From Flavobacteriales bacterium (GTDB taxonomy: Bacteria > Bacteroidota > Bacteroidia > Flavobacteriales_D > Parvicellaceae): 48,109 nucleotides of DNA. Below, one piece after another: positions 43,229 to 47,012 of the stretch. The stretch's first letter is position 1, and the number at the start of each line of letters is the position of its first letter. Both the position numbers and the translations under genes were made by a program. Under the pieces are notes generated by a model. That model ran no database searches, was not told where the DNA came from, and was given only the letters and a program-made list of their open reading frames with translations. The stretch covers positions 1 to 48,109 of the forward strand of contig JAQXDK010000028.1 in assembly GCA_029251405.1 (NCBI GenBank), written 5' to 3'.

Positions 43229-44474
43229 AACCTACTTTGTAACTACCATTTGTTGCAGCTCCTCTAAATATAACGGTATCACCGTCATTGATAAATTTTC
43301 TTTCACTACCGTCAGGCATTGAGACTGGTTGTGTTCCTCTCCAACTAATTTCTAACATGGATCCAAAAGAACCTTTTTGAGGACCTGAAATTGTTCCAGA
43401 GGCCAATAAATCTCCACAATTAATATTACATCCATTTACTGAGTGATGAGCCAATTGTTGATTCATGTTCCAATACATGTGCTTGTAGTTACTTTCAGTC
43501 ACTACTTTTTCTTCTCCATTAGGTATTTTTATAGAAACACTGAGGTCTATATTTAAATGCTTGTCATTTTTATATTCTAAGTAGGGAAGTACTTTAGGAT
43601 TTTGAACAGGACCTGAAGTTCTAAAAGGTTCCAAAGCGTCTAGAGTTACAATCCAGCAGGACATTGAACTTGCAAAATTTTTAGCAAGAAACGGTCCTAA
43701 AGGGACATATTCCCATTTTTGAATGTCTCTTGCTGACCAATCGTTAAAAAGACACATTCCAAATATAAAATCATCGGCTTCTTCTGTAAATATTTGTTCT
43801 CCTAATGGCTTGCCTTCAAAGGTGATAAACCCCATTTCCAGTTCGAAATCTAATAATTTAGAAGCTCCAAATATTGGGTTCTCTGATTCATCTTGTTTTT
43901 GTTGTCCTTTGGGTCTAATAACATCTTCTCCAGATGGGATTATGGATGAGGAACGGCCGTGATATGCAACTGGAATATGCTTCCAGTTAGGTAGCAAGGC
44001 ATTATTAGGATCTCTGAACATACTACCTACATTAAATGCATGTTGTTCACTGGAATAAAAGTCGGTATAGTCACCAATTTTGATTGGTAAATGCATTGTT
44101 GCGCTCGATTGAAGGTCAAGTACTAATTTTAGGTGCTTTTTATCTTTATATAGCTCATCATTACTGATGTTTAAAAGTTCCGATATTCTGTTTCTTAATT
44201 CTCTAATTTCGATTTTCCCATGACCCATCATTCTATTTAGAAATTCGTTGTTAAAACAATGTTCACAAAAGCTTAAAGAACTCAAATATCCAAGTTCGTA
44301 AAGATTTGCCAAATCAAGAATCTGATTTCCAATAGCAACACCCACTCGTTTAGATTTTGTTTTGGTAGAAAAAACTCCAAATGGTAGATTTTGAATAGGG
44401 AAATCACTGTTTTCGGAGACTTCTACCCAAGATTTTAAGCTGGGGATATTTGCTGATAATTTTTCTTTTACCAT
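43191..44474 (-). CDS. fahA: Fumarylacetoacetase
   Basis: Last enzyme of tyrosine/homogentisate degradation, cleaving fumarylacetoacetate to fumarate and acetoacetate. Metal and catalytic residues fit the mammalian enzyme with a constant +12 offset: Asp138, His145, Glu211, Glu213, Asp245 and Lys265. At 427 residues it is full length with the N-terminal SH3-like domain. The rest of the tyrosine pathway (hmgA, hpd) is not in the window. It overlaps glyA by 7 bp and relA/spoT by 38 bp. Confidence 0.96.
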
Positions 44475-45742
44475 TTAAAAAGTGGTTTAGATGACATTAA
44501 TTCGTTTACTTGATTCTTGATTGCTAATAACTGGGTTTCATTTTGATGGTTTTTAATACTTGAATCAATTAAGTTAGCAATAATTTTAATTTCTTCTTTT
44601 GCGACTCCTCTAGTAGTAATAGCAGCTGTCCCAATTCTTATACCACTGGTGATAAATGGAGATTGCGTATCAAAAGGAACCATATTTTTGTTTACGGTGA
44701 TGTCGGCCAGCCCTAAAGAATTTTCAGCATCTTTTCCATTTACATCTTTATTTCTCAAGTCAATTAAAAGACAGTGATTGTCAGTGCCGTTAGAAATTAT
44801 TTTATATCCTAAATTCATCAATTCTTCAGACATAACTTGAGCATTTTCAACAACCTTTTTAATATAACTTCCGTATTCATTTTGTTGAGCTTCTCTAAAA
44901 GCAACAGCTTTAGCAGCTATAATATGTTCTAATGGCCCACCTTGAGTACCTGGAAATACAGCAGAGTCTATTAAAGTAGATAATTTTTTAAGTTTTCCAG
45001 ATTTAAATTTGAATCCCCAAGGATTTTCAATGTCGTTACCAATCATTATTACTCCTCCTCTAGGCCCTCTTAATGTTTTATGGGTAGTAGTTGTTACTAC
45101 ATGACAATACGGAAGAGGATCATTTAATATTTTGCCAGCTATTAATCCTGATGGATGAGATATATCTGCTAAAAGTAGTGCTCCAATTTCATCTGCTATT
45201 GAACGTAATGTTTTGTAATCCCAATCTCTTGAATAGGCAGATGCACCACAAATGATCATTTTTGGTTTTATCTTTTTTGCCTTATCTCTTACTTTGTTGT
45301 AATCAATGGTTCCAGTTGCTTCTTCAACACCATAGAAATGTGCATTATACAATTTACCTGAAAAATTTACTGGAGATCCGTGAGTTAAATGTCCACCGTG
45401 AGACAAATCAAAACCAAGTATATCATCTCCTGGATTTAAGCAGGCTAAAAATACTGCTGCGTTAGCTTGTGAACCAGAGTGAGGCTGAACGTTTGCCCAA
45501 GAGGCGCCGAATAAACTTTTCAAACGGTCAATAGCAATTTGTTCTATTTGGTCAACAACCTGACAACCACCATAATATCTTTTATTTGGTAGTCCCTCCG
45601 CATACTTATTGGTTAAAATAGAGCCACTCGCGCTCATGACCGATTCACTGGCATAGTTTTCGGAAGCAATTAATTCAATTCCTTCGGTTTGTCTTGTTAA
45701 CTCTTCTTTAATTAGAGATTCAATTTGGGGGTCTTTTAACAT
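44468..45742 (-). CDS. glyA: Serine hydroxymethyltransferase
   Basis: PLP enzyme interconverting serine and glycine with tetrahydrofolate, the main source of one-carbon units. The PLP lysine is Lys222 in [14 protein letters not shown], with HPSG near residues 196-199 and the HGSPVNFSG loop near 121-129. The length, 424 residues, is standard. It heads the minus-strand run glyA-fahA-relA/spoT-fur-STAS-purA. A TAACTTTG -7 box lies 16 bp upstream of the ATG. Confidence 0.97.
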
Positions 45743-45769: not shown

Positions 45770-46270
45770 TTATAGTGAAATTTTTGTTCTATTGTAAGCG
45801 AAAAATACTAACAAAAATGACATTGGATATAATGAAGATTGAACAAAATGGCTTAACTCTAAAGAAATAAAATAAAAATTCATTTGGTTCTCTAAGTTCA
45901 ATAATTTTCCTGCAATAAAAATTAAAAAAGAAATCAATAAAATTGAAAAACCACCAATTGAAAATAATTTTATAAAAACATCATGATTTTTCTTTTTAAA
46001 TGTCCACGTAGACAAAATATATCCAATCACAAAGTATAATAAGGCAAAAGAAATTGATAAAATCCATTTGCAAACTTTTAGATTCTGAACACTCATGTTT
46101 TTTATAATCATATAAATGCTCGAATCTGTATAGTTAAATGGAACCAGATGGTCAATTTTGCTTAAAAGAAAATCAATTTGAAGATTGATGTTTATGAAAA
46201 TATAATCTCTTAAAAATTCTAAGTATAAGGTAAAAAAAATTAGGACTAGATATTTAATTTTTTGCTTCAT
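45770..46270 (-). CDS. Exosortase F system-associated membrane protein
   Basis: A 166-residue protein with about four membrane helices (about 7-18, 69-89, 101-121, 136-158). It resembles the small protein that accompanies exosortase XrtF in Flavobacteriia, seen in its LEFLRDYIF-type start and size. I base this mainly on the position and topology. Its function is unknown; it may help the sorting enzyme or handle the cleaved tail. The start overlaps the XrtF 3' end by 17 bp, indicating translational coupling. Confidence 0.75.
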   Translation of the reverse strand: MKQKIKYLVLIFFTLYLEFLRDYIFININLQIDFLLSKIDHLVPFNYTDSSIYMIIKNMSVQNLKVCKWILSISFALLYFVIGYILSTWTFKKKNHDVFIKLFSIGGFSILLISFLIFIAGKLLNLENQMNFYFISLELSHFVQSSLYPMSFLLVFFAYNRTKISL

Positions 46271-46814
46271 TTATATTAGAAAATTTCTTAATCCACCAAA
46301 ACCACAAACCAAGCATAGAGAAATACACAACAATTTGAAATGTAATATTATGATTAAACTCTAAAATGAAAGGATTAACTGCAGAAATATATGTAAGTAA
46401 AGCTACTCTTATTACATTTATTATATGTAAAAAAAATATACCGGTTGGAATAAACCACATCTTATTTATAATTCTTCCTTTAAACGCAATTATAAAAATG
46501 CTAAACAACCCAAAAACCTTAATTCCATTGCAGGGCTCACCAATCCAAACTCCATGATTGTAAGGGTAGTCTAATATTTTTGTTATAATCATATCTCCTT
46601 GAATTTCTGTAGATGTTTCAAAATTAAATAAAGAGAGTAGAAAGTTTGACTGATGACTTAACAATTCTGAAAAGGTTGTTAACATGTCAATTTTAAAATT
46701 TAAAAAGTCATCAAGTTTATATAGATAGTGGTAGAAAAAAAACCAAAATGTTATGAGCGGAATAAAAGTGATTAAGAATTTAAATTCAGGTTTTTTTAAA
46801 TCTAAGAAAAACAA
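46254..46814 (-). CDS. xrtF: Exosortase XrtF
   Basis: Integral membrane transpeptidase-like protein (186 residues) expected to cleave a C-terminal sorting signal of exported proteins and attach them to an unknown envelope acceptor. The exosortase catalytic triad is visible: Cys95 in IGEPCNGIKV, Arg136 in INVIRVALL and His155 in EFNHNITF. Five or so membrane helices surround these. The start is TTG at 46814, directly after the stop codon of the upstream PID-CTERM-like gene and in the same reading frame; no ATG or GTG before residue 43 would keep the first helix. A single stop codon therefore separates the candidate substrate from its enzyme. Confidence 0.86.
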   Translation of the reverse strand: MFFLDLKKPEFKFLITFIPLITFWFFFYHYLYKLDDFLNFKIDMLTTFSELLSHQSNFLLSLFNFETSTEIQGDMIITKILDYPYNHGVWIGEPCNGIKVFGLFSIFIIAFKGRIINKMWFIPTGIFFLHIINVIRVALLTYISAVNPFILEFNHNITFQIVVYFSMLGLWFWWIKKFSNINEAKN

Positions 46815-46997
46815 TTATTTGTTTTTTGAAAGAAATTTATAACCAAAAAGAATACTAATAAATGTGAAAATACTAATACCTCCGTCAATTGGAACACAAG
46901 GGGGGGGCCAACAAGGTGTTCCGCCAGGACTTCCTGGCTGAGAAAAGTATTGTTGAGTTATTAAAATTATTATGATTATTAAAAACTTTTTTTTCAT
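46815..46997 (-). CDS. Miniature PID-CTERM-like sorting-signal protein
   Basis: A 60-residue protein with a signal peptide (about 1-19), a short linker rich in Gly, Pro and Cys (residues 20-40, with CWPPPC) and a C-terminal PIDGG motif (about 37-41). A hydrophobic helix (about 42-54) and a basic tail (KFLSKNK) follow. This is the layout of PEP-CTERM-like sorting signals in Bacteroidota (PID-CTERM). The mature peptide before the motif is only about 17 residues, so the protein has almost no cargo domain. It sits immediately before xrtF and is the likely substrate or a processing reporter. Its linker is encoded across a run of eight C. Confidence 0.75.
   Translation of the reverse strand: MKKKFLIIIIILITQQYFSQPGSPGGTPCWPPPCVPIDGGISIFTFISILFGYKFLSKNK
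46900..46907 (-). repeat. C8 homopolymer tract inside the PID-CTERM-like gene
   Basis: Eight consecutive G on the plus strand (C on the coding strand) encode the three prolines of CWPPPC. It is the longest G/C run I saw in the window. Seven C would put the rest in another frame that ends inside xrtF; nine C leads to an early TGA. Either change removes the PIDGG motif and membrane anchor. Confidence 0.85.
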
Positions 46998-47004
46998 TAC
47001 ACTA

Positions 47005-47012
47005 CAAAAGTA
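47005..47012 (-). promoter_or_regulatory. Candidate -7 box for the exosortase locus
   Basis: On the minus strand TACTTTTG matches TAnnTTTG. It lies 7 bases before the ATG at 46997, so the transcript would be nearly leaderless. A -33 TTG is not seen at the usual distance. The 76-bp gap also contains a weaker GATATTTG facing the polysaccharide gene. Confidence 0.35.

Follow-up and report, generated by a model that had tools for sequence, protein, structure and literature searches.

A PID-CTERM-type microprotein beside an XrtX-type exosortase in a Parvicellaceae genome: a probable exosortase client retained across Bacteroidota

Gene organisation of the locus

The window, i.e., the whole stretch of DNA analysed in the present study (48,109 nucleotides), is an entire contig (JAQXDK010000028.1) of the genome of a Flavobacteriales bacterium assigned to the GTDB family Parvicellaceae (GCA_029251405.1). 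Near its end, the minus strand encodes a protein of 60 residues, called here the microprotein (MKKKFLIIIIILITQQYFSQPGSPGGTPCWPPPCVPIDGGISIFTFISILFGYKFLSKNK, the translation of the frame 46997-46815), followed by genes for an exosortase and for a membrane protein associated with it (Table 1). The TAA stop codon of the microprotein gene occupies positions 46815-46817, and the TTG start of the exosortase gene comes directly after it, at 46814. On the other side, a divergent plus-strand gene starts about 80 bases from the microprotein gene. The serine hydroxymethyltransferase gene found downstream is often present in the same place in related loci, with no apparent functional link.

Table 1. Features of the locus, with positions in the window
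Feature	Position	Strand	Evidence
Serine hydroxymethyltransferase	44468-45742		Downstream of the XrtX genes in the window
XrtX-associated membrane protein (166 aa); its gene overlaps the end of xrtX	45770..46270	(-)	NF046082 E 5.7e-5 (below cut-off); family-excluded profile E 6e-17
XrtX-type exosortase, 186 aa, TTG start, triad C95, R136, H155	46254..46814	(-)	NF046081 E 1.8e-37; tree; triad invariance
Microprotein gene, 60 aa, putative exosortase substrate of PID-CTERM type	46815..46997	(-)	Translation, profile match, conservation, dN/dS
Hydrophobic helix (41-53) and basic tail (54-60, KFLSKNK)	46818..46877	(-)	All three C-terminal parts retained in relatives
PIDGG motif (36-40), presumed site of recognition by the exosortase	46878..46892	(-)	Invariant columns; NF046080 positions 1-9
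Two-cysteine loop C29-W-P-P-P-C34	46896..46913	(-)	Cysteines paired or absent in 74 proteins from loci not motif-chosen
Gly/Pro-rich linker QPGSPGGTP, residues 20-28	46914..46940	(-)	114 relatives retain the Gly/Pro composition
Predicted signal peptide, residues 1-19 (MKKKFLIIIIILITQQYFS), cut likely before Q20	46941..46997	(-)	Read from sequence
Bacteroidota-type -7 promoter element TACTTTTG, 7 nt before the microprotein ATG	47005..47012	(-)	TAnnTTTG enrichment
Divergent gene of the Wzc type (polysaccharide chain length/kinase), truncated at the contig end	47074..48109	(+)	Wzz domain PF02706 and TIGR03007, weak matches

A preliminary description of this DNA had recognised in the small protein a signal peptide joined to a PID-CTERM-like anchor. 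The comparisons made here agree with this, since the C-terminus combines the PIDGG motif, the helix and the basic tail in the PID-CTERM (NF046080) layout, and this tripartite tail is conserved in relatives. The columns P36, D38 and G40 show no variation among 84 aligned relatives, and NF046080 is matched by 80 of 84 relatives at an E-value of 0.01. The window's microprotein itself is aligned only with positions 1-9 of the model and obtains 13.3 bits, below the curated cut-off of 26. The Pfam search yielded no family for the microprotein, and a sequence comparison with solved structures found none resembling the microprotein or XrtX.

Conservation of the small gene

Several comparisons indicate that the 60-residue frame is a genuine gene. 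As was found by a profile with the window's family excluded, this frame was the only match among the 788 frames of the window (E 3e-19, the next best E being 1), and the signal partly consists of the CWxPxC motif by which the training sequences were chosen. Comparison with the nearest same-genus relative gave a dN of 0.10 and a dS of 0.97, or a dN/dS of about 0.1, which rests on the clearest same-genus pair, dS being saturated in other pairs; such a ratio points to purifying selection. The sequence TAnnTTTG, a promoter element of Bacteroidota, is located upstream of the microprotein gene in 68 of 110 related loci, where 14 were expected (maximum 22); its distance from the start is mostly 20-50 nt.

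In the window's family, all the intact XrtX loci that were read contain a small frame of the same kind immediately upstream, 60-97 residues long; the small frame of locus L014 reaches 131 residues if the furthest start is used. Within the family and the order taken together, the gene was found in 55 of 57 XrtX loci, a count that relates to loci found by the enzyme and not by the cysteine motif, includes the window's locus and excludes L021, truncated where its contig ends. L033 and L043 are the only two of these loci without the gene. The preliminary description had stated that a frame not conserved in relatives would be a chance one; this explanation can appeal to the shortness of the product and to the 13.3 of 26 bits given by the NCBIfam model, but its probability seems negligible and it was rejected on the strength of the dN/dS and the family-excluded profile match, the frame, its position and its motif all being retained across Bacteroidota.

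Assignment of the exosortase

The adjacent enzyme, which had been taken for XrtF, is a multi-pass membrane protein carrying the TIGR04178 exosortase signature (43 bits at a cut-off of 23). The active site of exosortases is expected to consist of Cys, Arg and His, and the 186-residue enzyme possesses this triad of the superfamily; the three residues are invariant in all 96 aligned enzymes, including that of the window. Its score is 128.8 bits with the exosortase X model (NF046081), under the curated cut-off of 170, and 77 bits (76.4 in the genome search) with the XrtF model (TIGR04128), under the curated cut-off of 90. The phylogenetic tree constructed with FastTree placed the enzyme inside a clade of 58 XrtX/microprotein members (support 0.92), outside of which the strong XrtF proteins were located.

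A motif scan of the examined stretches of seven strong XrtF loci and 11 weaker XrtF-like loci revealed no PID motif of the microprotein kind. The XrtF identity was therefore abandoned, and by score and tree the exosortase of the window is assigned to the XrtX type. The suggestion that short genes of this kind should be sought directly upstream of xrtF thus failed for XrtF itself, in these 18 loci, and held strongly for XrtX. A 59-residue cysteine-free relative of the microprotein was observed at the XrtF-like locus L218.

The 166-residue protein obtained 22.9 bits with NF046082, under the curated cut-off of 75, but a profile constructed with members of other families reveals clear homology to the XrtX-associated membrane protein (E 6e-17). 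The XrtX cut-off is passed by 72 genomes of the order, none of which belongs to the window's GTDB family. As the proteins of the window are below the curated cut-offs, their membership in the XrtX system is deduced from the position in the tree, from the motif and from the order of the genes.

Neighbouring genes: Wzc and type IX proteins

The divergent gene of the window is representative of many loci. Among the 62 upstream genes scanned, 44 matched the Wzc tyrosine kinase, and these genes are mostly divergent and encode about 790 residues. In a locus from the same genus (L247), a complete Wzc gene is followed by genes that, read by eye, resemble those of sugar-nucleotide synthesis or glycosyl transfer. 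A polysaccharide export family is encoded elsewhere in the window's genome.

In other lineages a type IX protein replaces Wzc upstream, so the link with polysaccharide is not universal. It is conceivable that the product serves the type IX side, anchoring or maturing the large surface protein encoded upstream, and that the adjacency of Wzc is a coincidence. A type IX sorting domain terminates 26 of the 29 same-strand upstream neighbours scanned, which mostly lie a few tens of bases from the microprotein gene. Nevertheless, no type IX protein adjoins the gene in the window, and the window's family has the divergent Wzc gene as neighbour, as do most of the remaining loci and L247, which makes this explanation an unlikely one. 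A role together with exopolysaccharide is preferred for the window.

Large same-strand type IX proteins, often of about 1030 residues, were observed just upstream of the microprotein in L131, a locus of the culturable Crocinitomix catalasitica ATCC 23190, and in L061, L070, L072, L078 and other loci. Many of these large neighbours align with one another. It is suggested by the sequences that the large type IX upstream proteins may form a specific partner family.

The paired cysteines

For 74 distinct proteins, all from loci selected without the cysteine motif, the 16 residues preceding PID were compared. Two cysteines are present in 69 of them and none in five; a single cysteine does not occur. 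The spacing is four in 54 of the 69 proteins; for the others it is mostly seven or eight. The second cysteine is separated from PID by one residue or none in nearly all relatives. The earlier idea that the two cysteines could be cross-linked gains from this pairing: it is the pattern that a disulfide loop would give, and it is also compatible with metal binding or lipidation. A disulfide between C29 and C34 is probably formed in the mature peptide. The five proteins that keep PIDGG without cysteines indicate that the motif does not need the loop. Cysteine-free microproteins with PIDGG or PLDGG were noted in L218, where the gene is next to the XrtF-like enzyme, and in L225, L231, L238 and L240.

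The cysteines might instead be lipidation sites, as proposed for MYXO-CTERM, with XrtX cutting only after lipidation and the product remaining as a membrane-held lipopeptide. The nearly constant position of the second cysteine just before PID would suit such a mechanism, and in Myxococcus the MYXO-CTERM cysteines are required for cleavage by myxosortase, lipidation being proposed there (PMC11980579). However, myxosortase is an unrelated glutamate protease, five of the 74 relatives lack cysteines altogether and yet possess PIDGG and the helix, and the strict pairs with their predominant spacing of four suit a disulfide loop better. Lipidation is considered improbable, and the disulfide-closed form is retained as the preferred one.

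Association with XrtX, size and copy number

A search of the GTDB genome collection with the pattern CWxPxC[IV]P[IV]DxG, conducted without regard to exosortases, found at least 117 loci. Among the 117 listed, XrtX is directly downstream in 105, three end too soon and nine contain no exosortase. The microproteins of the listed loci measure 60-86 residues, with the exception of one 115-residue frame that starts at the locus end. The start of the downstream exosortase gene overlaps the microprotein stop in many related loci, by one base (TAATG type) in about 13 and as ATGA in six. The claims that the microprotein adjoins its enzyme as a candidate exosortase substrate and that the two genes are coupled are borne out by the first of these results and made plausible by the second. 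It seems that the microprotein belongs to a widespread Bacteroidota family of secreted peptides of about 60-90 residues, the main client of exosortase X.

Some loci depart from this arrangement. Microprotein genes with no adjacent exosortase in the examined stretch were recorded in L089, L105, L111, L117, L127, L130 and L164; those of L105, L127 and L164 are beside serine hydroxymethyltransferase, and in several of the exosortase-less loci the microprotein gene is closely preceded by a large gene on the same strand. In L225 the cysteine-free microprotein is encoded downstream, not upstream, of its exosortase genes. L057 and L060 contain a 114-residue variant adjoining XrtX, with extra cysteines and IPIEDG instead of PIDGG. 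The same-genus locus L128 (G017 contig 78) corresponds to the deposit Crocinitomicaceae bacterium MED621. Within the window's genus, XrtX is absent from seven of 11 genomes (G021 is listed among them), one of which is 96% complete in six contigs. This indicates that the system is dispensable, and it seems to have been lost in some species of the genus.

The preliminary description had regarded a nearly cargo-free form as unusual, a view that is not supported for this family. The survey of the class (247 genomes) found 143 PID-CTERM matches over the cut-off, with a median frame of 82 residues; 140 of them are in frames shorter than 150 residues and just three in longer ones, so the near absence of cargo is the rule in the PID-CTERM family. 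The one clear PID-type tail of a large protein in the survey terminates a 995-residue frame (L245, G582 contig 1), which ends with VPIDGEVWVLLAGGLALAVGQLRRTWQVG (VPIDGEVWVLLAGG...RRTWQVG). Matches are present in 88 genomes of the order, of which 82 contain exactly one, and the window's genome has one copy only, even when searched with the whole-family profile. In other families of the class, some genomes contain two to five copies, many away from the enzyme and some on other contigs.

With little or no cargo and a gene that usually adjoins that of the enzyme, often with an overlap, the microprotein could also be imagined as an adaptor or other small protein acting alongside XrtX (or Wzc), remaining uncut in the membrane and positioning or regulating the enzyme. 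This is rather improbable in view of the tail, which is organised like a standard sorting signal and recurs in kind on the 995-residue frame. Copies that are multiple or unlinked to the enzyme also fit clients better than a subunit. The microprotein is thus very probably an XrtX client.

Proposed maturation of the microprotein

The microprotein gene is real and conserved, occurs once in the genome assembly, and is linked to XrtX and Wzc. For its product, we infer export, cleavage, transfer to an acceptor, disulfide closure and a role with exopolysaccharide. The 60-residue precursor would be exported by Sec, and signal peptidase would remove approximately the first 19 residues. The remainder would stay anchored in the inner membrane by the C-terminal helix, its CWPPPC-VPIDGG segment being exposed at the outer face. 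XrtX, by means of its Cys-Arg-His site, would cleave at or near PIDGG, the helix being discarded, and would transfer the remaining peptide of about 16-21 residues, comprising the linker and the two-cysteine loop, to a lipid or a glycan. The resulting short peptide would be located at the surface, would probably be closed by the C29-C34 disulfide and would act with the exopolysaccharide of the adjacent Wzc system.

That the microprotein is a dedicated XrtX client matured to a short peptide that functions at the surface together with exopolysaccharide appears reasonably likely on the evidence of gene order and conservation. A more specific version can be put forward only tentatively and is rather doubtful: XrtX may be a one-client peptide-maturation enzyme, whose disulfide-closed, Gly/Pro-rich peptide of about 20 residues would be covalently joined to exopolysaccharide or a lipid carrier, as a cap or anchor of the polymer rather than for the display of a protein domain.

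To our knowledge, the acceptor that receives exosortase clients in bacteria is not known. The client considered here is little more than a sorting signal, is single in the genome and is encoded beside its enzyme, and its mature product should therefore be small enough to be read whole by mass spectrometry. The microprotein and XrtX may thus serve as a minimal system in which to identify the acceptor of exosortase clients. The cargo-free rule in the XrtX branch also shifts the question from the displayed protein to the role that a 20-residue peptide would have for polysaccharide or type IX surface proteins.

Comparison with known systems

All three parts of the system have already been named by NCBIfam as PID-CTERM (NF046080), exosortase X (NF046081) and the XrtX-associated membrane protein (NF046082), with the same motif and the same three genes. 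Many relatives of the window's enzyme pass the XrtX cut-off, whereas the window's own three proteins are divergent and below all three cut-offs; the locus is a divergent member of a named system. The NF046080 model covers the tail only; neither the loop with two cysteines nor the very small size of the protein is included in it, nor are the neighbouring Wzc or type IX genes. Among the papers covered by the literature search, none treats PID-CTERM together with exosortase. Nor was any description encountered in them of the loop with paired cysteines, of the nearly universal small size, of the single copy or of the Wzc and type IX neighbours.

The XrtF system (TIGR04128; Fjoh_1448/1449 of Flavobacterium johnsoniae) likewise comprises a Bacteroidota exosortase of similar size and an adjacent membrane partner. 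In F. johnsoniae it is needed for biofilm formation and surface colonization (PMC10936215), and the targets of XrtF are reported as not yet known (PMC12188702). It differs from the present system in that seven loci well over the cut-off and 11 weaker ones have no PID microprotein nearby, and the window's enzyme groups with XrtX.

MYXO-CTERM and myxosortase provide a likeness in the conserved cysteine near the sorting helix (PMC11980579). The clients of this system number dozens per genome, and myxosortase is an unrelated protease (PMC11980579). The cysteines of the microprotein, in contrast, are paired and sometimes absent.

The PEP-CTERM/EpsH (XrtA) system shares with the microprotein the signal peptide and the succession of motif, helix and basic tail. 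PEP-CTERM has been linked to exopolysaccharide genes, including a chain-length determinant, and the genomes possessing it have a median of eight clients with diverse sequences (PMC1569441). Unlike these, XrtX typically has one client, shorter than 90 residues and belonging to one family.
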